Positions 20,908 to 59,661 of a DNA stretch of 64,000 nt are shown in pieces. The notes beneath the pieces are model-generated. The model had not been told where the DNA came from, searched no databases, and worked only from the letters and a program-made list of their open reading frames with translations. The DNA is taken from the IMG/VR virus record IMGVR_UViG_3300028829_006090, positions 1 to 64,000 of that record; one strand, given 5' to 3'. Position 1 is the first letter of the stretch; each line of letters opens with the position of its first letter. The translations under genes were made by a program, and so were the position numbers. This DNA is from a virus.

Positions 20908-21525
20908 TCATTGCGTTGCCTTTGTTACGCTACCCCGGAGGATAGCGATTGCGTCCTTTACTAAGGCGGCCCCAGCGACGTGCCACATGGCGGAATATGC
21001 GGCGGAATATGCGGCGGAAGTTGAGGCGTACTCTGCGGCGGACCGTGCGGCGTTCCACATGTCGGAATATGCGGCGGACCGTGCGGCGGACCAGGCGTAC
21101 TCTGCGGTGGACCCAGCGGCGGACCCCGCGGCGGACCGTGCGGCGTGCCACATGGCGGAATATGCGGCGGAATATGCGGCGGAAGTTGCGGCGGAATATG
21201 CGTCTCCCCGGTCCTGCTCTCTCCCCTCCCGCAGCCAGCGAAGAACTACTTCGGGTACTTCTGCCTCCCAGTTCCCGATACAGCGGAGAGCAGAGCGCCG
21301 AGCTGCAAGGCTGCGCTGCTCTTCAGACATTAGGCGACATAGAGCCCAGAGTTTATCATCCGATGGGATCTTTCGCATACGTCCTAACTGCTCTATGCTG
21401 ATCGGCAGCTTAGGCATCAACCATGCGCCTAGTACCGTACACGGATATCCGCTACATGCGTCAAAGTAGCAGGCGCTTTTCGATACTAGCCACTCGTGCG
21501 TTATTACCTTATCTTCGTCTTTCAT
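20908..21525 (-). CDS. Ala-rich tetrapeptide-repeat protein, copy 2, 205 aa
   Basis: The N-terminal domain MKDEDKVITHEWLVSKSACY is nearly identical to copies 1 and 3. The repeat region runs for about 90 residues of xSAA-type units mixed with AMWHAA and AEYA units, the longest complete repeat of the family here. The last 20 residues (VKDAIAILRGSVTKATQ) and the DNA on both sides are shared with copy 3. A role is not known; the high identity points to recent duplication within the genome. Confidence 0.85.
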   Translation of the reverse strand: MKDEDKVITHEWLVSKSACYFDACSGYPCTVLGAWLMPKLPISIEQLGRMRKIPSDDKLWALCRLMSEEQRSLAARRSALRCIGNWEAEVPEVVLRWLREGREQDRGDAYSAATSAAYSAAYSAMWHAARSAAGSAAGSTAEYAWSAARSAAYSDMWNAARSAAEYASTSAAYSAAYSAMWHVAGAALVKDAIAILRGSVTKATQ

Positions 21526-27806: not shown

Positions 27807-28595
27807 CTAACCGGTAGACAGCCCCTTCAAGGCGTCCGCAAATTTGGCCAGATCAGCGGGGCTTGTGACAGCCTCCGCTGCTGTGACCGCAACAGGGACG
27901 GGCGGAGGAGGCGCTGCTGCGTAGTTAGCAGGAGGCGCTGCGGGAGGCGCTGCTGCGTAGTTAGCAGGAGGCGCTGCGGGAGGCGCTGCTGCGTAGTTAG
28001 CAGGAGGCGTTGCGGGAGGCGTTGCGGGAGGCGCTGCGGTGAACGGAGGAGGAGGCGCAGAGGCCGCCTTAAATCCCCCCTCTCCTACCGGGTCAAAGCC
28101 CGTATGTCCCGCTGCTGGTGCCACGAGCTCTGTGATCTGGATTTGGTTGAGGAACATGCCTACACCAGACACAACGCCTGTGGCGTATGCACGGCCCGTG
28201 CCGATTGAGAACCGACCACGACTACCGTTGCCGATGAGCCAATTCTCCCCAGCAGGTGCCTTCTCCCCCGTGGCATCGTAGAGAGCCGGGGGACGGGTGG
28301 TCTTGAACTTAAAGACCAAGGTCCCTGCGGCTTCGCCGGGAGTTCCAGGCACGTACTTCTTTGCCCAGATCTTTTTCTTTTTCTCGGGATCCGGCTCCGC
28401 ATCAGCAAGAGCCGTGAGACCCGCGTTTACGATCTCCTCCAGAGTCTGCCGAAGGTGTTGCCCTTCCTCGCCCTCGATTACAATCGAGCATTCGATCTTC
28501 GTCGACGACGAGTCGAAATGGGTGTTGGGAACGGTCGTGTCCCCATTGATGCCGCACCAGACCAAGTCCCCGAAGGGTGTGATAATGTCTGCCAT
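27807..28595 (-). CDS. putative single-stranded DNA-binding protein, 262 aa
   Basis: The N-terminal 170 residues (MADIITPFGDLVWCGINGDT ... IECSIVIEGEEGQHLRQTLE ... VGMFLNQIQITEL) resemble phage ssDNA-binding proteins of the DUF2815/gp2.5-like type, with the usual phrase listing kept positions for an OB-fold barrel. A low-complexity Pro/Ala tail follows, with three near-identical PPANYAAAPPAA repeats. The position just downstream of the DNA polymerase fits. AGGAGACTATAAA precedes the ATG. Confidence 0.65.
   Translation of the reverse strand: MADIITPFGDLVWCGINGDTTVPNTHFDSSSTKIECSIVIEGEEGQHLRQTLEEIVNAGLTALADAEPDPEKKKKIWAKKYVPGTPGEAAGTLVFKFKTTRPPALYDATGEKAPAGENWLIGNGSRGRFSIGTGRAYATGVVSGVGMFLNQIQITELVAPAAGHTGFDPVGEGGFKAASAPPPPFTAAPPATPPATPPANYAAAPPAAPPANYAAAPPAAPPANYAAAPPPPVPVAVTAAEAVTSPADLAKFADALKGLSTG
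27900..28045 (-). repeat. tandem repeats encoding Pro/Ala tail of SSB-like protein
   Basis: A unit of about 39 bp built on gcgctgctgcgtagttagc and aggaggcgctgcgggaggc occurs three times in succession, followed by shorter gttgcgggaggc units. It encodes PPANYAAAPPAA repeats. Length change by slippage would leave the DNA-binding domain untouched. Confidence 0.8.
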
Positions 28596-39235: not shown

Positions 39236-39669
39236 TGTGTTGCCTTTGTTATGCTACCTTGGAGGATAGCGATTGCGTCTTTTACCGCGGCGGACCGTGC
39301 GGCGGACCGTGCGGCGAACTCTGCGGCGGACCCAGCGGCGTACTCTGCGTCTTTCCGGTCCTCCTCTCTCCCCTCCCGCAGCCAGCGAAGAACTACTTCG
39401 GGTACTTCTGCCTCCCAGTTCCCGATACATCGGAGCGCTGAGCGTCGCGCTGCAAGACTGCACTGCTCTTCAGACATTAGGCGATATAGAGCCCAGAGCT
39501 TATCCCGTGCGGGGATCTTGCGCATACGGCCTAGCTGCTCTATACTGATCGGCAGCTTAGGCAGAAGCCATCTTCCTAGAGCCGTGTCAGGCTCTCCCTC
39601 TTCGTCGAAGTAGCACGCCCCTTTCGAGACTAGCCACTCGTGCGTTATTACCTTATCTTCGTCTTTCAT
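39232..39669 (-). CDS. Ala-rich tetrapeptide-repeat protein, copy 3, 145 aa
   Basis: The start is set at 39669 (MKDEDKVITHEWLVSKGACY) by alignment with copy 2; upstream in-frame codons lie in unrelated sequence. The conserved domain is followed by a short repeat (AEYAAGSAAEFAARSAARSA) and the same C-terminal end as copy 2 (VKDAIAILQGSITKATQ). The repeat is much shorter than in copy 2, so repeat number varies. About 70 bp around the start codon match copy 2 almost exactly. Confidence 0.85.
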   Translation of the reverse strand: MKDEDKVITHEWLVSKGACYFDEEGEPDTALGRWLLPKLPISIEQLGRMRKIPARDKLWALYRLMSEEQCSLAARRSALRCIGNWEAEVPEVVLRWLREGREEDRKDAEYAAGSAAEFAARSAARSAAVKDAIAILQGSITKATQ

Positions 39670-46642: not shown

Positions 46643-48979
46643 TTAGTGGGGGTCGCATTCGTCGTAGTCGAATAGAGATACCCCTGCCTGAGCAGTAGCG
46701 TCCTCTCCGTTCCCGCTCTGGTCCGGAACATCAGTAAGGGTAGACTGGTTGCCGACATAGTGGAACAGTGCTCCGGCTGGGGGCTCCTTAAAGCATCCTG
46801 CCGCGTAGAAGTCGGACGGCGTCTCGTATGAGTCGTACATACATATGTGATCCAAATACCCGTCGACAGTGCCCATGCGTCCGGCGGAAGTAAGTACCGA
46901 TATCCCGGTACCGGGCCAGCTAGTGCTGGTAGACTCGGAGTACATACTAGTCCCGTCGCTCAGCCATAGCTGCGCTGTGTTAGTAGAGGACTGGTATCTC
47001 CACACAAGCTGCCTCCAGACATTATCGTCCCACCCCAATGTAGAAGAGTACATACGGACATCGCCTACACTCGGATGGTGGCTGATGATTCTAATCTTAG
47101 TGCCGTCGCGGTCCCACCATACGTTCTGGATTGATCCGGACGACGGGCGATAGAACGCTGTGAAGCTGGCGGTGGAGTCCCATCGAAACCGGCCCGCTAT
47201 TGTAAGATCTGTGAATGTGCTCCAGGTCGGTGTAGCATCCATTGTAATATACCCGGACCCTATGTCAAACGCCTGAAGTTGGGGAGCCGGGGCGGCGGCT
47301 ACTAGGCTCGAAATCTCGTAGAGGCTAGACACATCGACCGGGCTAGACACATCCACAGGGCTCGACACATCGACCGGGCTAGACACATCGACCGGGCTAG
47401 ACACATCGACCGGGCTCGATACATCGACCGGGCTCGATACATCGACCGGGCTCGAAATCTCGTAGAGGCTCGAAATCTCGTAGAGGCTCGAAATCTCGTA
47501 TAGGCTAGACACATCTACAGGGCTAGACACATCGACCGGGCTCGATACATCCACAGGGCTCGACACATCTACAGGGCTAGACACATCTACAGGGCTAGAC
47601 ACATCTACAGGGCTCGACACATCGACCGGGCTCGAAATCTCGTATAGGCTCGAAATCTCGTATAGGCTCGAAATCTCGTATAGGCTCGAAATCTCGTAGA
47701 GGCTAGACACATCTACAGGGCTAGACACATCGACAGGGCTAGACACATCGACCGGGCTCGATACATCGACCGGGCTCGACACATCTACAGGGCTCGAAAT
47801 CTCGTATAGGCTCGAAATCTCGTAGAGGCTCGACACATCTACAGGGCTAGACACATCGACCGGGCTCGAAATCTCGTATAGGCTCGACACATCGACCGGG
47901 CTAGACACATCCACAGGGCTCGAAATCTCGTATAGGCTCGAAATCTCGTATAGGCTAGACACATCTACAGGGCTCGACACATCTACAGGGCTAGACACAT
48001 CTACAGGGCTCGACACATCCACAGGGCTCGACACATCCACAGGGCTCGACACATCCACAGGGCTCGACACATCCACAGGGCTAGACACATCTACAGGGCT
48101 AGACACATCTACAGGGCTAGACACATCTACAGGGCTCGACACATCTACAGGGCTAGACACATCTACAGGGCTCGACACATCTACAGGGCTAGACACATCG
48201 ACAGGGCTCGACACATCGACAGGGCTCGATACATCCACCGGGCTAGATACATCCACCGGGCTAGAAATCTCGTAGAGGCTCGAAATCTCGTATAGGCTCG
48301 AAATCTCGTATAGGCTAGACACATCTACAGGGCTAGACACATCTACAGGGCTCGACACATCTACAGTGCTAGATACATCGACCGGGCTCGAAATCTCGTA
48401 GAGGCTCGAAATCTCGTAGAGGCTAGACACATCGACCGGGCTAGACACATCCACAGGGCTCGACACATCTACAGGGCTAGACACATCTACAGGGCTCGAC
48501 ACATCCACAGGGCTCGACACATCTACAGGGCTAGACACATCCACAGGGCTCGACACATCCACAGGGCTAGACACATCTACAGGGCTCGACACATCGACCG
48601 GGCTAGACACATCCACAGGGCTCGACACATCTACAGGGCTCGACACATCTACAGGGCTCGATACATCCTCAGCAAATGGATTATCGGAAGATGCAAATCT
48701 ATCAGATAAGCTAGACATCTCCTGAGCCGTAAGAGATATTGCATAAGAGCTGCTGGAAGGAGTGAATGCAACAGAGACGCCCTGGGCGGCGATGGAAGAT
48801 GCGCCGAGTAGCGAACTAGAGGAGCTGGTACCTAGGCAGTCCGCGCACGTTTCGTACGTAGGCACGCCCCCCGCTTCAGGCGAGTTGGGGACAGTAGTCA
48901 CGTATCTGGCAAACGAGAAGCACTTCCCGTCTATCTTGACTACTTCTCCGGCAAACTCAGGTAATATACGATGGTCCAT
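46643..48979 (-). CDS. virion display protein with 75-unit hexapeptide array and LamG-like domain, 778 aa
   Basis: Three parts are visible. Residues 1-50 are an anchor module (FAGEVVKIDGKCFSFARY ... TYETCADC) shared with the next two genes. Residues 107-556 are 75 uninterrupted six-residue units, mostly SSPVDV with 18 of SSLYEI and one SSTVDV. Residues about 570-735 look like a jelly-roll LamG/concanavalin-type domain (FTDLTIAGRFRWDSTASF, DDNVWRQLVWRYQSS, YLDHICMYD). The array is likely an extended stalk presenting a carbohydrate-binding head. AAGGACGTT precedes the ATG. Function inferred from architecture. Confidence 0.85.
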   Translation of the reverse strand: MDHRILPEFAGEVVKIDGKCFSFARYVTTVPNSPEAGGVPTYETCADCLGTSSSSSLLGASSIAAQGVSVAFTPSSSSYAISLTAQEMSSLSDRFASSDNPFAEDVSSPVDVSSPVDVSSPVDVSSPVDVSSPVDVSSPVDVSSPVDVSSPVDVSSPVDVSSPVDVSSPVDVSSPVDVSSPVDVSSLYEISSLYEISSPVDVSSTVDVSSPVDVSSPVDVSSLYEISSLYEISSLYEISSPVDVSSPVDVSSPVDVSSPVDVSSPVDVSSPVDVSSPVDVSSPVDVSSPVDVSSPVDVSSPVDVSSPVDVSSPVDVSSPVDVSSPVDVSSPVDVSSPVDVSSLYEISSLYEISSPVDVSSPVDVSSLYEISSPVDVSSPVDVSSLYEISSLYEISSPVDVSSPVDVSSPVDVSSPVDVSSPVDVSSLYEISSLYEISSLYEISSLYEISSPVDVSSPVDVSSPVDVSSPVDVSSPVDVSSPVDVSSPVDVSSLYEISSLYEISSLYEISSPVDVSSPVDVSSPVDVSSPVDVSSPVDVSSPVDVSSPVDVSSLYEISSLVAAAPAPQLQAFDIGSGYITMDATPTWSTFTDLTIAGRFRWDSTASFTAFYRPSSGSIQNVWWDRDGTKIRIISHHPSVGDVRMYSSTLGWDDNVWRQLVWRYQSSTNTAQLWLSDGTSMYSESTSTSWPGTGISVLTSAGRMGTVDGYLDHICMYDSYETPSDFYAAGCFKEPPAGALFHYVGNQSTLTDVPDQSGNGEDATAQAGVSLFDYDECDPH
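47312..48661 (-). repeat. tandem array, 75 x 18 bp, two unit types
   Basis: Every unit is exactly 18 bp. In reading order the runs are P13 L2 P1 T1 P2 L3 P17 L2 P2 L1 P2 L2 P5 L4 P7 L3 P7 L1, where P is SSPVDV, L is SSLYEI and T is SSTVDV (one substitution near 48365). P units differ at silent positions (cctgta, cctgtg, cctgtc, ccggtc), so the protein is conserved while DNA varies. No spacers are present, so it is not CRISPR. Unit number is expected to be unstable. Confidence 0.97.
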
Positions 48980-48992
48980 AACGTCCTTCTGG

Positions 48993-50825
48993 TTACTCTA
49001 GCGTAAGGGTCTCGCCGTCTTCTGTTATGAAGTTCTCCCCGGTCTCGAGAACTAACCCGAATTCTTCCGCAGATGACGAGGACGGTGACGTATCTAATAC
49101 AGCTCCTACACAATCTAAGCAATCGAAGTACGGTCCGAGGACATTAATGGGAGGAGAGAGGAAGTCGAATACCACGTCGCAATACGGACTGGATGATCCC
49201 TCCTCTAGCATCGTAAAGCACGCGCTGCTGCTTACATCGAAATGAACTTCAAAAGTCTCGCCCGGAATAAACTGGTCTATGTAGTAGGAAGGAATGCACC
49301 ACACTTCCTCGTCTTGGCAGTGAAGGGCCAGAGTCATATCAGGCATCGCCGCATCGTCGTTGATAAGAGTCACTCGGCCGGATAGGTCTAAGACAGAACT
49401 GTCAGAGGAGGACGAGTTCTCTTCTATTGGCCTCTGGTCTACAAGAGCCTGCTGTCCGTCATCCTTCGCAGACAGCAGAGGATCCAATACATCGTCCGGT
49501 AGGCCACTAGCGCAGTCGAAGCACCCGTCGAATACATCATCCAAGGTCGGGGAAGACAGCACACGCGTGCTACCTGAGGAGCAGGATGGAAGAGAGTCCG
49601 ACGGGCCTGTATGTACGTCGATGAATGAATAGCAGACTCCGTCAATCTTAAGGACATCCCCGTCTACGAACCCGGCTACGCTAGAAGAGGCTCCGTTAAG
49701 CAGGTCATCCATACATGCCCACGTACAGCTGTAAATAGGCACGGTAGGCATTCCATATACCTCGTGTATGCCTCGGACGTCTTCGTAGGACTTAACAAGC
49801 CCGCCACCGCCCCACGATTTATCCAGCCGACCTGCTCCGTATATGTGCGAACGATTAACGACTGTGGGAAACAATACGGACTTATAGGAATGAGTAGCGT
49901 ATACCGGAGTGCCCTTAAAGGATTCGTTGTGCTTAAATCCTAGAGAATGTCCTATCTCATGCGCAGCTACATAAGCTATGCTATATGAGTTAGTATCCCC
50001 TCTGTGCTTGTTAGAAGAGTCCTTAGACCAAGGACTGCCTCTATCAAAATGTAAGACAGTCCCTCCAGCTCCGTTCCCTATCTTAGCGTACCTAAGCGGA
50101 TAGGAGGCGTGAGCTAGTGCGGACAGATCCTCCATGCCGAACCGGAAATCTCCTCTAGTTAGTGAGGGATTGCTATTCTCGTCACCCGTGTACGTGAACT
50201 CCACCGTAAGTTGGTTGGAGAACCCGAACGATGGGCTATATGCGAACTCAAACGCAGCCTTCCATTGGTCGAACGCGGATTGTATCTCTGCGAGAAATTC
50301 AGCCTTCGTTACTGGATTTCCTGTAGTGCTGCGCTCTGCGCTAACATCCGCAACCGGGTCCTCTTTTAGCTCGAAGATAGGGGCATGCCACGGAGAGCCT
50401 CTGGTATATTTCTGAAGTGTCCACGTGAAGGAAATAGTCTGGGGACCCTCCGCTAGGTCATCTACAGCATCCTTCAGCTCGTACCAGTATCCGCCCTCTT
50501 CACCGGTCCAGGCACCTTCGTACGTATAGGGCTCTGTTGCCACAAAGCAGTTATCGAGCCGCGCCCACTCCAAGCATTCGTACAAGCTGATAGATACAGA
50601 GCTCGAGCTTACAACCAATGTACTAGGTGTCGTGGAGCTAGGGACCTCAGAGACTGCTATAGCCGAACAATCTTCGCACGTATCATACCTAGATGCATCG
50701 GAGTCTAGGATATCCGGCTCTCCTGACGAGGCGTACCCGTCAAAGATATAGCATACGCCGTCTATCTTCACCACATCTCCGGAGTAATCCGGGAGTAAGT
50801 ATTCTCTGTCTCCGTATATAGGCAT
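48993..50825 (-). CDS. virion protein with matrixin-type metalloprotease domain, 610 aa
   Basis: It starts with the anchor module (MPIYGDREYLLPDYSGDVVK, CYIF, TCEDC). A metzincin domain occupies about 130-360, with zinc motif HEIGHSLGFKH (289-299) and a probable Met-turn reading SVLFPTV where Met is Leu. A second Cys module (GDVLKIDGVCYSFIDV ... CFDC) follows near 400, then a beta-rich region with a final CLDC. A protease on the particle could degrade capsule or surface protein, or process virion parts. No signal peptide is seen. Confidence 0.85.
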   Translation of the reverse strand: MPIYGDREYLLPDYSGDVVKIDGVCYIFDGYASSGEPDILDSDASRYDTCEDCSAIAVSEVPSSTTPSTLVVSSSSVSISLYECLEWARLDNCFVATEPYTYEGAWTGEEGGYWYELKDAVDDLAEGPQTISFTWTLQKYTRGSPWHAPIFELKEDPVADVSAERSTTGNPVTKAEFLAEIQSAFDQWKAAFEFAYSPSFGFSNQLTVEFTYTGDENSNPSLTRGDFRFGMEDLSALAHASYPLRYAKIGNGAGGTVLHFDRGSPWSKDSSNKHRGDTNSYSIAYVAAHEIGHSLGFKHNESFKGTPVYATHSYKSVLFPTVVNRSHIYGAGRLDKSWGGGGLVKSYEDVRGIHEVYGMPTVPIYSCTWACMDDLLNGASSSVAGFVDGDVLKIDGVCYSFIDVHTGPSDSLPSCSSGSTRVLSSPTLDDVFDGCFDCASGLPDDVLDPLLSAKDDGQQALVDQRPIEENSSSSDSSVLDLSGRVTLINDDAAMPDMTLALHCQDEEVWCIPSYYIDQFIPGETFEVHFDVSSSACFTMLEEGSSSPYCDVVFDFLSPPINVLGPYFDCLDCVGAVLDTSPSSSSAEEFGLVLETGENFITEDGETLTLE

Positions 50826-50910: not shown

Positions 50911-51345
50911 CTAGGTGGATATGCTGTCAGACGATGAGCTATCCGGCAAGGAAGACGATGAGTCTTTGCTTGAAGACGATGAGCTATCCGGCAAGGCAGA
51001 CGATGAGCTATCCGGCAAGGCAGACGATAAGTCTTCGATTAAAGACGATGATCTATCCGGCAAGGCAGACGATGAGCTATCCGACAAGGCAGACGATGAG
51101 TCTTTGCTTGAAGACGATGAGCTATCCGGCAAGGCAGACGATGAGTCTTCGCTTGAAGACGAAGTAGACGAACAATCATCACACGTCTCGTAGGCCACAA
51201 GCTCGTCTAAGTCTATGTCGTCAGCAGCGGCGCTAGACTCGAAGCCTCGGAATTTATAGCAAATTCCGTCAATCTTCACGACCTCGCCTACGTAGTGCGG
51301 TAATCGGTAATTTCTGTCTCCATATATGGGAGGGGGTATAGGCAT
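50911..51345 (-). CDS. anchor module with Ser-rich tail, 144 aa
   Basis: The first 60 residues (MPIPPPIYGDRNYRLPHYVG, VVKIDGICYKF, YETCDDC) match the N-terminus of the matrixin protein. The remaining 85 residues are almost only Ser with Asp, Ala, Leu and Pro (SSALPDSSSSSSKDSS repeats), encoded by imperfect 24- to 60-bp repeats. It looks like a display stalk without a head domain, either truncated or serving as a linker. Confidence 0.75.
   Translation of the reverse strand: MPIPPPIYGDRNYRLPHYVGEVVKIDGICYKFRGFESSAAADDIDLDELVAYETCDDCSSTSSSSEDSSSALPDSSSSSSKDSSSALSDSSSSALPDRSSSLIEDLSSALPDSSSSALPDSSSSSSKDSSSSLPDSSSSDSIST
50935..51165 (-). repeat. imperfect repeats encoding Ser-rich tail
   Basis: Units based on gacgatgagctatccggcaa and gaagacgatgagtctttgct recur about nine times. 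They encode Ser-rich ALPDSSSS and SSSKDSSS segments. The pattern allows slippage and tail-length change. Confidence 0.8.
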
Positions 51346-51360: not shown

Positions 51361-54300
51361 TTATCCTATCGCTATGAGGTCTATAAACTCAGGTCCGTCT
51401 CCGCACCGTATTTGGTCCCTGTAGTATCTACCTTCCGGAGATGATCCACACACTTGGACGCCATACCATGACGTATCCAAGCTCGGACTAAGAAGCGTCA
51501 TCTTCAGCTCCCATATACCTGTAGATGGCAGGTCTCCATCGGCCACGAACCGTACGTAGGTCTCGTCAAAGTACATCCGAGCATCTCTAGTGGGGCTATA
51601 CTCTACTCTGTCCGCGGGCGTAGGATCTACTCCGCGGTCTGGGTTCCACTGATCGGTTCCGTTAAAGTAAAAGTCCCCTGACCAAGCATACAGAGAGGAC
51701 TGGTCGAGGTCGTACGCTGAACACCCTGGAGCATTCAGCATAGTTCCTACATCTTGTACTGTCTCTAAGATGGAAGACGCGGAGCCGTCCCAGTACCCTA
51801 TGCAGTTCGTACTGCTATCTGCCGGGGGAGCCGATCCGACGGTATGAGTAGAGGACGAGGAACTTGTCGGAGATACCTCGGAGGACGAGGAACTTGTCGG
51901 AGATACCGCGGAGGACGAGGAACTTGTCGGAGATACCGCGGAGGACGAGGAGGAGGAGTTAAACACATCGCAGGGTATATATCTCGCTAGACGCCTAGAT
52001 GATATGGTCGAAGATGATGACACAAGAACAGAGCTCGAAGACGGACTAATAGAGGGCACAGATGAGCTGGACGGCAGTATCGACGAGCTGGACAGCATTA
52101 TCGACGAGCTGGACAGTGTCACGGATGAGGACGAAGAGACGTCACATGGCTCATATACCGCGATTAGCTGACTACTTACTGCGCTGCTACTGCTCTGCTC
52201 GCAGGTACGGCAGTCAGCGTAGGGGCCCGACACAAAGGTAGGAGTAAGTTCCAGAACAGTCCACGTATCCGGACAGGATGTATCCATAGCACAGTCTGAT
52301 ATAGAGTAGCAGCGTCCGTCCAAGCTAAGAATATCTCCGACTTCCGCGTCGAATGGAATATTAGACTTTGCCACAAATGTACACTTCTCCAACACGTCTG
52401 GAAAGCATGGAGAAAGCCTATAATACTCGCAGCAGTCGTCGCAATCCGCGTACGGACCTTTGACCTCTGCCGGCTGAGGCAGTACTACGACAGTCGGCCA
52501 TATGCAGTCTACCCCATCCCCTATGTATGTCTTCTTCCTACCCTTTATACGATAGCACTTAGGTCCGTAGTTCGGGCTCTCTGGATCTGTCTCAGGAAGC
52601 GTGATACTTATCGTATCTCCTATATCATACTCTACTGTGACGTAGGATTCGCAGATAAACCAGCAAGACTCCAGAATGTACGGGAAGCATGGCTCTAACT
52701 CCAGATATTCTGTGCATGGCGAGGACGAGGACGATGACGTAGCTCCTACACAATCTAAGCAATCCGCGTACGGACCTTTGACCTCTTCCGGTTGAGGCAG
52801 GACTTTGACTGTAGGCCATCTGCAGTCTGGCGCAGCCCCTATGTCTGTCTCCGTCCTATCCGCTATACGATAGCACCTAGGGCTCTCCGGAGCCTCTCCA
52901 GGAAGCCTGATATTTATCGTATCTCCTATATCATACTCTACTGTGACGTAGGATTCGCAGATAAACCAGCAAGACTCAAAAATGTGCGGGAAGCATGGCT
53001 CTAACCCCAGATATGCTGTGCATGACGGGAGCGATGGGGAGGAAATAGACGGCGCGCTGCTGCTGCTACTACTTATTACGTCAGAAGATGATGACGAGAC
53101 CGTGTCGCACGGCTCGTATACAGCAATCACGGACACACTGCTCTCGCTAGTGCTTATGCTGCTCTCGCTGGTGCTTATGCTGCTCTCGCTGGTGCTTATG
53201 CTGCTCTCGCTGGTGCTTATGCTGCTCTCGCTGGTGCTTATGCTGCTCTCGCTGATGCTTATGCTGCTCTCGCTGGTGCTTATGCTGCTCTCAGAGGACA
53301 CAGTAGAGCTAGACGACCCCGCACATGCTGAGATATACGCACGCGCCTCGTACGCGTAGCAATACTCCCCTTCTACGCAGGGATGCGCAACGCCCGGCTC
53401 AGTACCTATACCGCACTGCTCTTCTCCGTACAGGCCTGCCGTCACTGACGGAAAATCATCCCCTCGTACGACCAGCCACCCGGTAGATAGGCCTGACCTA
53501 TATGTAGCGAAGATGATCCACCAGTCCGGATCAGATACACCTCTATAGGCCGGGAAGGAGTTAAATGTACCAACATGTGCGTACTGCTGATCTGCGCCTG
53601 CGTACTTGTCTGGGTTTTCGTTAACCGAAAACGACAGTGAGTAGCAGGTTTCGAACGCGCACCGTCGGGCGGCCGTAGATCCTGTAAGTGAAGACAGCTT
53701 GGCGGCACATGCTGAATAGTCCGAGTACGGGCCCTCGACCTGTAGTCCTCCCAGGGACGGCACTATAAGCTCGCATCCGTCTCCTTGGCCCTGATAGTCG
53801 GCGACTTCGTCAAGTATCTCGTAGCACTCTGTTCCTGCTATAAACGTGTCTCCGATCTGAGCTCCGAGCGGCGCCTCGAATGCACTGATATAGAAGCACT
53901 GGTAAGGGGAGCCCCCTTCTATATCTGCTGGCAGAAGATTAGGAGGTCCACCATCGTCCTCGAATGCCGGGTTGGATATTTTGAAGAAGGTCTCCTCGCA
54001 CGGCAGATATAAGGGGTACACCTCTGCTGAGGACTCTACTAGCGGGACTGCCGTTATACACCACGACGCGGTCAGAGAGTAATATCCAGGCGTCTGCTCG
54101 ATCAGCGTGTGGTCGAACCCGCATAGGATTCCACCCTCCTCTTCCGTTATCTCAACAGCGCTGGAGGACAGGCGCAGGACCACTTCCGACACGTCCGCGC
54201 CCTCTCGATACAGGCATTCGTCGGTGAGTTCTCTGAAATCGCCTCCCGGACATCCTATGTAATGGCAGGGGCCGTGGACTTCCTGCCCGGAGGAGCTCGT

Positions 54301-54456
54301 AGGGCATCCCACGGCATCGTCAGGGCCGGTACTAGCAGGCAGGTTCTTAACCACAAAAATATCCGGATCCTCGCCCTCTCTAGTAGGGGAGACTTCCAGG
54401 ACAGCCAAGTAGCTATGCACCGCCCGATTATACACCTTGTGTATAATCAGTTCCAC
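51361..54456 (-). CDS. large modular Cys/Ser-rich virion protein, 1031 aa
   Basis: It starts with GTG at 54456 after AGGAGGATGTATAA. The N-terminal 370 residues have several Cys and likely beta domains. A stalk of seven-residue SSISTSE repeats follows at about 385-440. Three tandem Cys modules of about 95 residues (CFPHIFESCWFICESYVTVE ... GPYADCLDC) come next, two of them sharing 62 bp of identical DNA. Ser-rich linkers (SAVSPTSSSSS three times) lead to a C-terminal domain of about 150 residues rich in aromatic residues, possibly a receptor-binding head. A tail fibre or whisker is the likely role. Confidence 0.75.
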   Translation of the reverse strand: MELIIHKVYNRAVHSYLAVLEVSPTREGEDPDIFVVKNLPASTGPDDAVGCPTSSSGQEVHGPCHYIGCPGGDFRELTDECLYREGADVSEVVLRLSSSAVEITEEEGGILCGFDHTLIEQTPGYYSLTASWCITAVPLVESSAEVYPLYLPCEETFFKISNPAFEDDGGPPNLLPADIEGGSPYQCFYISAFEAPLGAQIGDTFIAGTECYEILDEVADYQGQGDGCELIVPSLGGLQVEGPYSDYSACAAKLSSLTGSTAARRCAFETCYSLSFSVNENPDKYAGADQQYAHVGTFNSFPAYRGVSDPDWWIIFATYRSGLSTGWLVVRGDDFPSVTAGLYGEEQCGIGTEPGVAHPCVEGEYCYAYEARAYISACAGSSSSTVSSESSISTSESSISISESSISTSESSISTSESSISTSESSISTSESSISTSESSVSVIAVYEPCDTVSSSSSDVISSSSSSAPSISSPSLPSCTAYLGLEPCFPHIFESCWFICESYVTVEYDIGDTINIRLPGEAPESPRCYRIADRTETDIGAAPDCRWPTVKVLPQPEEVKGPYADCLDCVGATSSSSSSPCTEYLELEPCFPYILESCWFICESYVTVEYDIGDTISITLPETDPESPNYGPKCYRIKGRKKTYIGDGVDCIWPTVVVLPQPAEVKGPYADCDDCCEYYRLSPCFPDVLEKCTFVAKSNIPFDAEVGDILSLDGRCYSISDCAMDTSCPDTWTVLELTPTFVSGPYADCRTCEQSSSSAVSSQLIAVYEPCDVSSSSSVTLSSSSIMLSSSSILPSSSSVPSISPSSSSVLVSSSSTISSRRLARYIPCDVFNSSSSSSAVSPTSSSSSAVSPTSSSSSEVSPTSSSSSTHTVGSAPPADSSTNCIGYWDGSASSILETVQDVGTMLNAPGCSAYDLDQSSLYAWSGDFYFNGTDQWNPDRGVDPTPADRVEYSPTRDARMYFDETYVRFVADGDLPSTGIWELKMTLLSPSLDTSWYGVQVCGSSPEGRYYRDQIRCGDGPEFIDLIAIG
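51850..51955 (-). repeat. 33-bp tandem repeat encoding SAVSPTSSSSS
   Basis: Three successive copies of a unit beginning gaggacgaggaacttgtcgg and ending in agataccgcg or agatacctcg. They form one of the Ser-rich linkers of the 1031-aa protein. Confidence 0.85.
52610..52977 (-). repeat. 62-bp exact direct repeat, offset 306 bp
   Basis: The 62 bp at 52610-52671 are identical to 52916-52977 and encode the start of two neighbouring Cys modules. The flanks are similar but diverged. This marks a duplication of a 102-residue module. Confidence 0.9.
53130..53292 (-). repeat. 21-bp tandem repeat encoding SSISTSE
   Basis: About seven successive copies of a unit containing tgctgctctcgctggtgctt, with one copy reading gatgctt instead of ggtgctt. 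They encode the SSISTSE stalk of the 1031-aa protein. Confidence 0.9.
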
Positions 54457-54863: not shown

Positions 54864-56711
54864 TCACGTATGGACAATCACGCACTGTATGTCCCCTCGC
54901 TGCCTAGTAACATACAAGAGTTCGCCCCAGATCTCTCCGGATATGTGGATCTTATCCCCGGCAGCGAGTTGCCAAACCGGTCCGGATAGGGGGAAGTACT
55001 CGGCCGCTCTAGTCGGATCCAATGCCTGGGCAGGGCCGTCTGAGCCTACAGGTGGCCGAAAGATCTGGTAGGGCAGGGCATTAAGTATATGCTCATCACC
55101 ATCCGATAATCGGAGGCCCAGCTTATAATACTCGCTTATGTTCGCTCGAGAGGTGCCGCTCACTCGTTTAACCCCGACGGCAGGCCGGCCGGACTCTGAT
55201 AGGTAGGACGAGACTACCCTATGGCCCTCCTGCAGATCTTCGCACGAATATGGACCACCTAGAGGAGCAGGCACTGTGCAGACAGTAGTCCCCGGAAGTA
55301 GCGGTATGTCCTCAGACTCCGGTATAGCGATTGTAGGGCCTTCATACCGAATGTCCGTGTACGTCGATAGATTATGCACTAGGAATCCGTTGGCGAATAA
55401 GGTTAGGTAATTTGCGACGTCCCATACAGCCACAGACTCTTCAGGTCCTTGGTGCTCATCTATACTTAAGATAGGATGCCATGCCCTATCCTTAGAGTAC
55501 AACTCATCCTCTGCTCGTAGAGGCAGTATCTCCGATAGATATGGGTACTCCGCTGTGGCCTTGGCTGCATCTATGGCCTTCCAAGCTTCCTCTCCGGGAG
55601 CGGATCTAGCATATACGGGCTGAGTGTCTGAGATCTCGAGAGTACCTCCGGATAATGTCCGGATCTGCCAGTACGCAAGCACGGATGATTTACAGGTACC
55701 TCTAATGGGCTGGAAATCTAGAGCGCCGTCGTACTCTGAGTATGAGAATACAGTATCTCCAGAGGCTAGATCCGATATAGGAACAACTCCCCGATCGCCG
55801 GTTAGTACGGTAGTAGAGCGGGATACAAGGGATCCCTTATTGTGTAAGAGCACCCCATCTGCGAAGTAGTTCCTATTGTCCTCTACCGCCCATAAATTAT
55901 ATACCTGCTTCTGCCCGGGATATTCCGATACAGAGGATATCTGATCCCACTCTCCACTCTTTGTTAGGACAAAGTCCCCTGCCGACATCTTCAGCAGTCG
56001 TCGTAGATACGGGTGCGATTTACGGGATCGGGAGGGGCAGTAGGATGCCCACCCTATCCCCGATCCGGGCTTACGGACATACACTGGCTGGGAGGTGGTG
56101 ATCCCCAGAGACGTCCCAGACTGTAGATTCAGCGTGATGTACCGGTCAACTAGCGGAGCATCTATGCCGAGGACTCGTTTACCTTCGACCTGCTCGCTTA
56201 CCTCGTTGTAGGAGAGCACAATGTCGCCTACCTGCACATCTTCGACTTTTATCTCCCCTCCTCCTGGAACTGATATTAAGGTGCTGGCCACTACGCATCC
56301 TCCTGGAATATCGTCCGAGGACGAGGACCCCGCCCCAACCTGCAACGTGCACAGATCCTGCATAAATACATGGGAGGCATTACGTACATACGGCATAGAT
56401 ATCTGCACAGGCGCGTCGAGCGTTACCCCTCGTACAGAGGATACGACAATATCTCCGTCTTCGCTGCGGAGAACGGCGCCCTCTACCAGTCCTCGATCCT
56501 TCTGGATAAAGCCAGAGGTGTTCTCAGCAGAGAAGAACTTGGTAGACGCTGAGAATACGTGGATGTCATTTATTACGACAAATTCACGTACTGTTGTCTG
56601 AACTGCTTTGAATACCTTCCTCGTCTCAATATCTAGCTCCGGGGACAGCGTCGCTATCTCCATACCCCTCTTCCAGGTCGGTAAAGCATCAAGCACGTCT
56701 TGATCCGTCAT
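54864..56711 (-). CDS. virion-cluster protein with tandem Hint (intein-like) domains, 615 aa
   Basis: After an N-terminal region of about 135 residues comes a Hint domain: GCVVASTLISVPGGGEIKVE (C139) to FADGVLLHN (H290, N291), followed by Lys. A second spans about 297-447 (TTVLTGDRGVVPISDLASGD ... LFANGFLVHN) with Ser/Thr in place of the first Cys. A third, diverged, runs from about 474 (TTVCTVPAPLGG) to the end without the HN. In the first two the usual TxxH of block B reads TSQP and DTQP. Such domains can splice, cleave or form crosslinks; here activity is uncertain. Confidence 0.8.
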   Translation of the reverse strand: MTDQDVLDALPTWKRGMEIATLSPELDIETRKVFKAVQTTVREFVVINDIHVFSASTKFFSAENTSGFIQKDRGLVEGAVLRSEDGDIVVSSVRGVTLDAPVQISMPYVRNASHVFMQDLCTLQVGAGSSSSDDIPGGCVVASTLISVPGGGEIKVEDVQVGDIVLSYNEVSEQVEGKRVLGIDAPLVDRYITLNLQSGTSLGITTSQPVYVRKPGSGIGWASYCPSRSRKSHPYLRRLLKMSAGDFVLTKSGEWDQISSVSEYPGQKQVYNLWAVEDNRNYFADGVLLHNKGSLVSRSTTVLTGDRGVVPISDLASGDTVFSYSEYDGALDFQPIRGTCKSSVLAYWQIRTLSGGTLEISDTQPVYARSAPGEEAWKAIDAAKATAEYPYLSEILPLRAEDELYSKDRAWHPILSIDEHQGPEESVAVWDVANYLTLFANGFLVHNLSTYTDIRYEGPTIAIPESEDIPLLPGTTVCTVPAPLGGPYSCEDLQEGHRVVSSYLSESGRPAVGVKRVSGTSRANISEYYKLGLRLSDGDEHILNALPYQIFRPPVGSDGPAQALDPTRAAEYFPLSGPVWQLAAGDKIHISGEIWGELLYVTRQRGDIQCVIVHT

Positions 56712-57115: not shown

Positions 57116-57385
57116 CTAGACTGCTCCGCTGAGATAGAGGGCCTCTCCGTGTAGTTTCTCCGACGAGCCCTGCGTCGGCACAGGTATTATGCCGGATTTG
57201 ATGGCCGCCTTAAGAAGATCTAGACCTATTGTCGGATATCCTAACTCCTGGATTTCAGATGCCCCCGGCAGGCCTTGCTCCGCCAACTCATCTGTAGGAT
57301 GCTCGTCTCCCTTTATGAGGGAGGCAAGGATACAGCTGGCTGCCGCCAATCCGTCACTATTGTTAAAAGTACCGGGAGCAATCAT
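57116..57385 (-). CDS. small hypothetical protein, 89 aa
   Basis: The protein begins MIAPGTFNNSDGLAAASCIL. It is soluble and neutral, and coupled by ATGA to the large LamG-containing gene upstream. No motif is recognised. Confidence 0.65.
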   Translation of the reverse strand: MIAPGTFNNSDGLAAASCILASLIKGDEHPTDELAEQGLPGASEIQELGYPTIGLDLLKAAIKSGIIPVPTQGSSEKLHGEALYLSGAV

Positions 57386-59661
57386 TTATAGGGAGATGGT
57401 GGAGCATATAGCAGGGTCGGGGCGGTGGCGTCAAGCGTGATACCTGTGTTTCTCCGTATATACGGAGCATCTACAAACCCGCGTACGAACGAAGTGTCGC
57501 CTGCGTTCAGAGTCTTCCCTATAGATATAGTGTTCGCCGATGGTAGGATGCTTCCGGCGAATGCCCTAGAGCCCAGCACGGTGCCGTCCAGGCTGAACTG
57601 CATGACGTTCCCCACCCTGTTCCATTCTAGCCAGTACCACGTGTCGTTATTTATAGTAGGAGTCCCACCACATCCCCAGTACCCTCCGTCCGGTCCCAGT
57701 CCTGCCATCCCCGCCTCAGTCCATGCCGAATATAGTGTTTTACCTCCGCTTGCTGCCCAGCCGGCAGGCTCGAAGGATATCACCCAGCACTCCCCGTTAG
57801 CGGAACCCCAGTTCGCAAAAATGTTCTGGTTTTGGGTATTATCTGTAGTACGCCATGCTATCCCTATCTCGAAGTTTTCTGTGCCGAAGTTGAAGCACGA
57901 GTGATAGTCTGCGGTAGCTAGGTCGGCACTAGTGTGCCTAGGGTCGTCGTACGTATTTCCCCAGTTCGGGAACGCGCCGGCAGTCATTGCGCCGTTGCCT
58001 CTTGTATTTATAGTCACATAGCTGCCTGCTGCGAAGCCTGTTATGCTGTCGGTGCCTATGTACGCCTGGGCGTTCGATACAGACGGTGTGCCTAGGGTAA
58101 GAGTTTGGTGCTGCTCTGTAGCATCTACCGCCGACCCTCCGTCTACATTAAGCGCAAGCAGAACCTCGCAGCACATGTCTGCGCAGCAGTCGCAGTCATC
58201 GTACGACACTAGGGGAGTACTTACTGTATCTGGGGCCACGTCCGTCGTGTACTCTACGAAGGAATAGCACTCTGAGCTGGACTGGAGTATAGAAGTAATG
58301 CCTGTTATTCCACCGGCATCCGACTCTTCGAATACATACTCGCCTCCTATTCCATCGCAGTCCTCGAACCTCATGCTTAGCGTAGTAGTATCACAAGTGG
58401 AGCAAAACTCGAACTCGTAGTCTATACTAGCGGCAGTAGTGGCAGCGGCTACGTATTGATCAAACTCATAGCATACGCCGTCAATGCGTACGACCTCTGA
58501 GGTAGTGGTAGCGTCTGAGACAATCTGAGAGGAGGCCGGGTTATCGCACCTGACGTACTGTCGGTTATTGCCTGCACATGTCGCGCAATCAGCAAACTCG
58601 GCATCTATATCTACGCCCGTATGCGTGACAGGATCCGTGGTAGTGCTGATGAAGTCATAGCACACTCCTCCTATCTTTATAGTCTGGGAACTTGTGTACT
58701 GGCTAGAAATAACCACCGCAGACGATCCGAGTATGCACTCCTCGTATAGCCTATATGTCTCACAAGCTCCACACGATGTGTGCGACGCATCAGGAGCCGC
58801 GTTGGTAGACGCGTCTTCTGTGAACTCGAAGAACTCGTAACACCCGCTGTTGATCTCTATTACAGAGTCTGTGGCCGGCACCTGGTTCTCAGGTATAATG
58901 ACCTCGGCAACCCCGTCTACGCAAGACTTATACCTAGCCTGGATGCTAGTAGCAGCGCAGTCGGCGCAATCCGTGTAGTTCGAATAATCGATAGAGGTAT
59001 GTGTCGTAGCAGCCAGTGTTGAGGATGTGGACGAGTAGCACACTTCATCAACTCGTACGATAACTTGTCCCGGAGCTACGCTTTCCCGGATAACTAAGCT
59101 GGGGGCGGCAGCCGCACAATCTACGTACTCAATGGCGGAGAATGTGCTAGCGCATGACTCGCAAGTTACGAACTCGTTATCCACTGCAAACACGTCCGCC
59201 GCGGTCTCTACATACTCTGTAGACGAGTAGCATTTACCGCTGACCTCGACAATAGCTGCGACAGTTACCGCGTCGTCTATGTAGATAATGTCCGACGGAT
59301 CTGCGCAGTTGGTATACCGTATGTTTAGGTCTATATCAGAGCAGTCCTGGCAGGTGTCGAACTCGTAGTCGAACTCTGTGTCGGTGATAGCGTCTTGGGT
59401 AGCGCCTACTCGCTCGTAACAGGCTCCGTCAATCTGGATAATTTGGGCATCTCCGGCTACAACCGGACTTAGTACTACAGGCATCTCAGGACCCCCGCAG
59501 TCTGTGTACTTTACGTTCGCTTCCCTGGCCGAAGAACTCCCCGGGCACTCCACAAACAGGACCTCGGAACATACCGTAAACCCCTCCCCATCGCACCGCA
59601 GCTCGCATCCCAAGGGGCGCTCTCTTACGGTGACATTTTCTATTCTGTGCTGGGAAGACAT
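57382..59661 (-). CDS. seven-module Cys repeat protein with LamG-like head, 759 aa
   Basis: From about residue 45 to 500 the protein consists of seven tandem modules of about 60 residues. Each has the order YxxC, a short beta segment, IDGxCYxF or a variant, a Thr/Asp-rich stretch and a closing CxxC (for example IKIGGVCYDF ... FADCATC). The last 250 residues form a LamG/jelly-roll-type domain (FEIGIAWRTTDNTQNQNIFA, YWLEWNRVGNVMQFSLDG). This looks like a stalk of disulphide- or metal-stabilised beads carrying a binding head. A fibre or spike is the likely role. Confidence 0.75.
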   Translation of the reverse strand: MSSQHRIENVTVRERPLGCELRCDGEGFTVCSEVLFVECPGSSSAREANVKYTDCGGPEMPVVLSPVVAGDAQIIQIDGACYERVGATQDAITDTEFDYEFDTCQDCSDIDLNIRYTNCADPSDIIYIDDAVTVAAIVEVSGKCYSSTEYVETAADVFAVDNEFVTCESCASTFSAIEYVDCAAAAPSLVIRESVAPGQVIVRVDEVCYSSTSSTLAATTHTSIDYSNYTDCADCAATSIQARYKSCVDGVAEVIIPENQVPATDSVIEINSGCYEFFEFTEDASTNAAPDASHTSCGACETYRLYEECILGSSAVVISSQYTSSQTIKIGGVCYDFISTTTDPVTHTGVDIDAEFADCATCAGNNRQYVRCDNPASSQIVSDATTTSEVVRIDGVCYEFDQYVAAATTAASIDYEFEFCSTCDTTTLSMRFEDCDGIGGEYVFEESDAGGITGITSILQSSSECYSFVEYTTDVAPDTVSTPLVSYDDCDCCADMCCEVLLALNVDGGSAVDATEQHQTLTLGTPSVSNAQAYIGTDSITGFAAGSYVTINTRGNGAMTAGAFPNWGNTYDDPRHTSADLATADYHSCFNFGTENFEIGIAWRTTDNTQNQNIFANWGSANGECWVISFEPAGWAASGGKTLYSAWTEAGMAGLGPDGGYWGCGGTPTINNDTWYWLEWNRVGNVMQFSLDGTVLGSRAFAGSILPSANTISIGKTLNAGDTSFVRGFVDAPYIRRNTGITLDATAPTLLYAPPSPYK

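Follow-up and report, generated by a model that had tools for sequence, protein, structure and literature searches.

The hexapeptide array and its genomic setting

The window, i.e., the whole 64,000-nucleotide stretch analyzed here, comes from a virus record of 164,893 bp, in which terminase, DNA polymerase A, primase, helicase, and UvsX-like genes are found. The protein of interest consists of an N-terminal cysteine module, a short Ser-rich linker, a long array of hexapeptides, and a C-terminal head. The features of its gene and of the neighboring genes are listed in Table 1.

Table 1. Features of the array gene and of its neighbors in the window
Feature	Position	Strand	Basis
Array-bearing ORF, 778 aa	46643..48979	-	ORF list and translation
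C-terminal head, about 216 residues, predicted mostly β, possibly concanavalin/LamG-like	46646..47293	-	AF2, fold search
Degenerate 76th unit SSLVAA, where the head begins	47294..47311	-	Sequence
Array, 75 x 18 bp, 450 residues, net charge -75, without Lys/Arg/His	47312..48661	-	Translation and TRF
Short Ser-rich non-repetitive linker preceding the array (SSSSSLLGASS...FAEDV)	48662..48831	-	Translation, Ser-rich window
N-terminal three-cysteine module, residues 1-62 (KIDGKCFSF...YETCADC), proposed virion anchor	48794..48979	-	Alignment A2; anchoring proposed from position and recurrence
Sibling: cysteine module, matrixin-like metalloprotease, second module	48993..50825	-	Pfam and module matches
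Sibling: cysteine module and loose Ser-rich array (SSSSALPD, SSSSSSKD, ...)	50911..51345	-	TRF, module match
Neighbor: Ser-rich arrays (SSISTSE, SSSSSAVSPT) and partial module match	51361..54456	-	TRF, module match
Neighbor: weaker internal copies of the cysteine module	57382..59661	-	Module match

Re-translation gives exactly 75 in-register 18-bp units without a gap, as in the initial annotation, encoding 56 SSPVDV, 18 SSLYEI, and one SSTVDV. TRF independently finds 74.7 copies of the 18-bp unit at 47323-48667 with a score of 1270. Degenerate half-units are found at both flanks of the array (PFAEDV before and SSLVAA after). The reading frame is open from end to end, and the other five frames contain 8-31 stops within the array. 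Every unit has one acidic residue, and the array is 33% Ser and 25% Val (114/450) with zero basic residues. The two kinds of units, initially called alternating, are better described as clustered in runs, of which there are 16, compared with 28.4 ± 3.1 in shuffled orders (P about 1e-4).

The RNA polymerase beta-type gene of the array phage matches that of Salmonella phage Arash (29.9% over 97%) and those of Vibrio phages D69, D181, and D148, and eleven genes in all match Arash. The array phage is a distant relative of Arash and D69. Relatives of its terminase and RNA polymerase were sought in viral contigs and none were found. Within the late minus-strand cluster, the array gene occupies the distal end, past the Arash-homologous genes for the portal, RNA polymerase, structural protein gp236, and sigma factor, and beyond a baseplate wedge gene assigned by PHROG. 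The initial assignment of the product as a phage virion protein is supported only by context, namely by gene order and by the homologues of the heads in related proteins, described below.

Other repeats and domains were observed in the window. Two tandem Hint/intein-like stretches, each with HN at its end, are found in the virion cluster at 54864-56711 (minus strand); the matches to Intein_splicing (E 1.5e-6) and Hint (E 6.8e-5) are both below the curated cut-offs, and the second stretch was recognized by eye. A 36-bp array with 97% matches at 27807-28595 (minus strand) encodes Ala/Pro-rich repeats (PPANYAAAPPAA) in a different protein. G/C-rich 12-bp arrays with a similar unit (GCGGCGGACCNT-like) are present at three sites (1-130, 20989-21202, and 39287-39349).

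The search for the two hexapeptides in viral metagenomic contigs, proposed in the initial annotation, did not find either dodecapeptide elsewhere. SSPVDVSSPVDV is absent from 2.9 million viral contigs (IMG/VR) apart from the window phage, and SSLYEISSLYEI has no other occurrence in these contigs, though the rarity is provisional because records very near the window may be excluded from these searches. The two matches to the SSPVDVSSPVDV pattern in 84,980 genomes are judged to be chance: one is WPVDVWWPVDV, which was matched since the degenerate pattern lets W stand for S, and for the other no matching ORF was found. Neither relatives of the whole array protein or of its head nor a second copy of the array were found in viral contigs and phage records. 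The function is thus not given by homology.

The array matches Pfam DUF1388 (PF07142) with 98.3 bits, above the curated cut-off of 25.9. No matches to this family are found in 14 control genomes, and single repeats score just 18-19 bits. The family represents neurofilament-type repeats, which have been described as being targeted by neurofilament-directed kinases (PMC5426083). Passing the cut-off, together with the two serines in each strictly conserved unit, would agree with the array being a multivalent surface for binding or modification, such as O-glycosylated serines or repeated binding sites, for which spacing is secondary. However, the match looks like one of repeat composition, without independent support or any other sign of kinship, and no modifying enzyme was identified beside the gene by a non-systematic inspection. 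We regard such a surface as unlikely to be the main role of the array.

Constraint on the units and history of the array

The initial annotation described silent changes as frequent and protein-altering ones as almost absent, and took the protein pattern to be under selection. The first statement holds and the second is supported. In the 57 SSPVDV-type units, pS is 0.387 and pN is 0.0026, giving a pN/pS of about 0.007 and a dN/dS of about 0.005, and in the 18 SSLYEI units, pS is 0.258 and pN is 0; the silent alleles underlying these values are, however, few (TCG/TCT, CCT/CCG, GTA/GTC/GTG, GTG/GTA, and CTA/CTC). The codons AGC, GAT, TAC, GAG, and ATT are invariant throughout the array, and their synonyms are freely used genome-wide (e.g., GAC 58% and TAT 36%). 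Seven of the eight allelic differences are silent and one is a replacement (binomial P about 3e-4, under a null in which all changes are equally likely and 76% are expected to alter the protein), a test that rests on these eight differences between units that share the history of one array and are not independent. Other Ser-rich arrays were considered as a control for selection but dropped, their unit numbers being too small.

These observations support that the array is a repeat at the protein level and that its protein pattern is under selection. Since the silent sites have diverged and the residues have barely changed, the exact S-S-[PL]-[VY]-[DE]-[VI] seems to be required in every unit. 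This bears on the alternative of an acidic spacer or brush that is flexible and disordered, like the staphylococcal Ser-Asp repeats, in which composition and length matter but the exact sequence does not, and uniformity is maintained by homogenization between units. The Ser-rich composition, the one acidic residue per unit, and the strongly negative charge without any basic residue suit such a spacer, and the SD repeats of staphylococcal adhesins provide a precedent (PMC3324548). Homogenization, however, acts on silent and replacement sites alike and should wipe out the silent differences too, so that it alone should not produce the contrast between pS (0.39) and pN (0.0026). The abundance of Val is also odd for a disordered spacer. 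We consider this alternative possible, though somewhat unlikely.

The runs of the two unit kinds were initially ascribed to expansion by slippage or unequal crossing-over of mixed blocks. Shared blocks of at least two units are in excess (32 vs. 20.7 in shuffles, P 0.006), which, together with the runs, fits an old block duplication. In contrast, there is no sign of recent slippage, since the longest block of units in common at the DNA level is three, the same as in shuffles, and neighboring units are not significantly more identical than expected (12 adjacent identical units vs. 8.6 ± 2.6 in shuffles, P 0.14). Which codon encodes the first serine depends on the type of unit that precedes it (TCG after SSLYEI in 16/17, P 5e-4), and CCG is enriched in the SSPVDV unit following an SSLYEI run (P 0.02). 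We read the history of the array as an old duplication of mixed blocks that was later blurred, not as recent slippage.

The longest exact repeat in the array is 71 bp and each 77-mer occurs once. The unit count is therefore credible, as words longer than this could allow the 75 units to be resolved in an assembly of short reads, and an assembly artefact is disfavored. That the array is such an artefact, or a minisatellite that expanded recently and matters little for function, might be suggested by the tandem arrays common in the gene cluster, some of which are near-identical in DNA, and by the traces of block duplication just described. The end of block sharing at three units and the uniqueness of the 77-mers make recent expansion or misassembly unlikely, and the ratio of replacement to silent changes is far from neutral. 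We give this explanation very little weight.

A recurring module, linker, and head

The array gene and the next two genes all begin with the cysteine module, and weaker copies are located inside other genes of the genome. The consensus over the first approximately 50 residues is G..[VI]KI[DN]G.C[YF].F...C..C, and the invariant columns in alignment A2 are G11, K15, I16, G18, C20, F23, C45, and C48. The best match of the module of the array protein within its own genome has an E of 1.4e-27, with a model that includes the array-protein sequence. In the array protein, SSSSS immediately follows the module and leads to the Ser-rich array. The Ser-rich linkers of the sibling genes have loose units, whereas those of the array gene are strict. 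The metalloprotease in the sibling at 48993-50825 (minus strand) matches Peptidase_M10 (E 3.1e-13), contains HEIGHSLGFKH, and is flanked by copies of the module on both sides. In the candidate L006, the protein that contains VKIDGSCYVF lacks the remainder of the module, and this match was taken as chance.

A pattern search led to two large phage contigs of 296 and 476 kb (IMGVR_UViG_3300017991_005548 and IMGVR_UViG_3300018080_008436), in which 17 and 19 matches to the module are found, mostly at N-termini, ahead of a Ser-rich linker that leads to a variable head. The two contigs are near-identical, with the same stretches and the same set of cysteine-module genes, and apparently represent one large phage that has at least these numbers of matches. 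The terminase of the window phage has no match in them. The proteins in these contigs share with the array protein a homologous N-terminal module, an adjoining Ser-rich linker, a C-terminal head, and clustered paralogues. Unlike the array protein, they have irregular SSSSES-type linkers, and a strict hexapeptide array was seen in none of them. At least one of their heads is Laminin_G_3 (E 1.3e-10). For another head of these proteins, matches were obtained to a PHROG annotated as virion structural protein (E 9.4e-30) and, with an E of 2e-45, to proteins of isolated phages.

The arrangement of anchor, stalk, and head proposed in the initial annotation is thus well supported as an architecture, since the plan of a module, a Ser-rich acidic linker, and a variable head recurs both in other genes of the array phage and in the two large contigs. 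The irregular Ser-rich acidic linkers that hold the same position in the siblings and distant relatives also speak for a flexible spacer, while the strictness of the units in the array somewhat favors a regular structure.

The assignment of the head as LamG-like did not fare as well. The head has no hit in Pfam, LamG (PF13385) included, even at E 10. Its AF2 model is mostly β, with a mean pLDDT of 34 (low confidence), and the best fold matches of the model are lectins and a neurexin LNS domain, none of which are at E ≤ 0.001, giving a weak hint of the fold. Comparison with the heads of the relatives gives nothing significant by phmmer and blastp, and hhalign probabilities are below 1%, so homology to those heads was rejected as well. 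The head is thus taken to be β-rich and possibly LamG-like. Because heads vary within the cysteine-module family, the absence of head homology does not exclude membership at the level of the module.

The array as a probable stalk and its relation to known repeats

Structure prediction of the array, also proposed initially, gives a β-solenoid-like pattern in part. In the AF2 model without an alignment, a strand appears at each six residues in the SSPVDV runs, with pLDDT up to 86, and the pattern is lost around the SSLYEI runs. However, the model has no significant match among PDB folds, and AF2 is known to give confident but unrealistic β-solenoids for perfect repeats (PMC11795689). The solenoid is thus not accepted at face value. 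A match to PDB chain 9e5c_0q (E 2.4e-11) is a low-complexity alignment of an acidic repetitive stretch and was not used. By ordinary geometry, the 450 residues would be about 150 nm long when fully extended and about 12 nm long as a solenoid with 18 residues per turn.

The explanation that we consider probable is that the array protein belongs to a group of modular proteins on the virion surface. Its three-cysteine module at the N-terminus would dock the protein on the particle, the C-terminal β domain would bind something outside it, and the hexapeptide array would be a long acidic stalk separating the two. The apparent requirement for the exact hexapeptide is slightly more in line with a regular shaft, e.g., an oligomeric β shaft, than with a spacer that is simply flexible. 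It is also conceivable, though we hold it to be quite improbable, that the two hexapeptides are the structural letters of a new regular fiber fold forming an acidic shaft with a length of up to about 150 nm at full extension. Bends or joints of such a shaft would be marked by the SSLYEI runs, so that its shape would be encoded in the run order.

Many surface proteins have long repetitive stalks, and usually it cannot be told if the precise repeat is important. In this array, the divergence of silent sites alongside fixed residues serves as a natural test, which says that it is, in an uncultivated and poorly known phage lineage that reuses an anchor module. A regular shaft, if the array does form one, would represent a simple two-word fiber design.

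This kind of protein is familiar, while the strict two-word hexapeptide repeat was found nowhere else searched. The SD-repeat adhesins of staphylococci (ClfA and Sdr) likewise have a Ser-rich acidic stalk coded by a minisatellite between an anchor and a binding domain, and variation in repeat number is known in them (PMC3324548), but these are cell-wall proteins with a dipeptide unit and unrelated sequences. The heptads of the yeast RNA polymerase II CTD resemble the array in that a degenerate DNA repeat codes for a conserved short peptide, and they show dynamics in repeat number (PMC4882425), whereas their unit has seven residues and the protein and function are unrelated. The aaTRs of Borgs, which are large mobile elements, are likewise in-frame repeats within coding sequences, and some are P/T/S-rich and enriched in extracellular proteins (PMC9879509). 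Borg tandem repeats are, however, described as recently formed and mostly disordered, whereas the silent sites of the array are well diverged.
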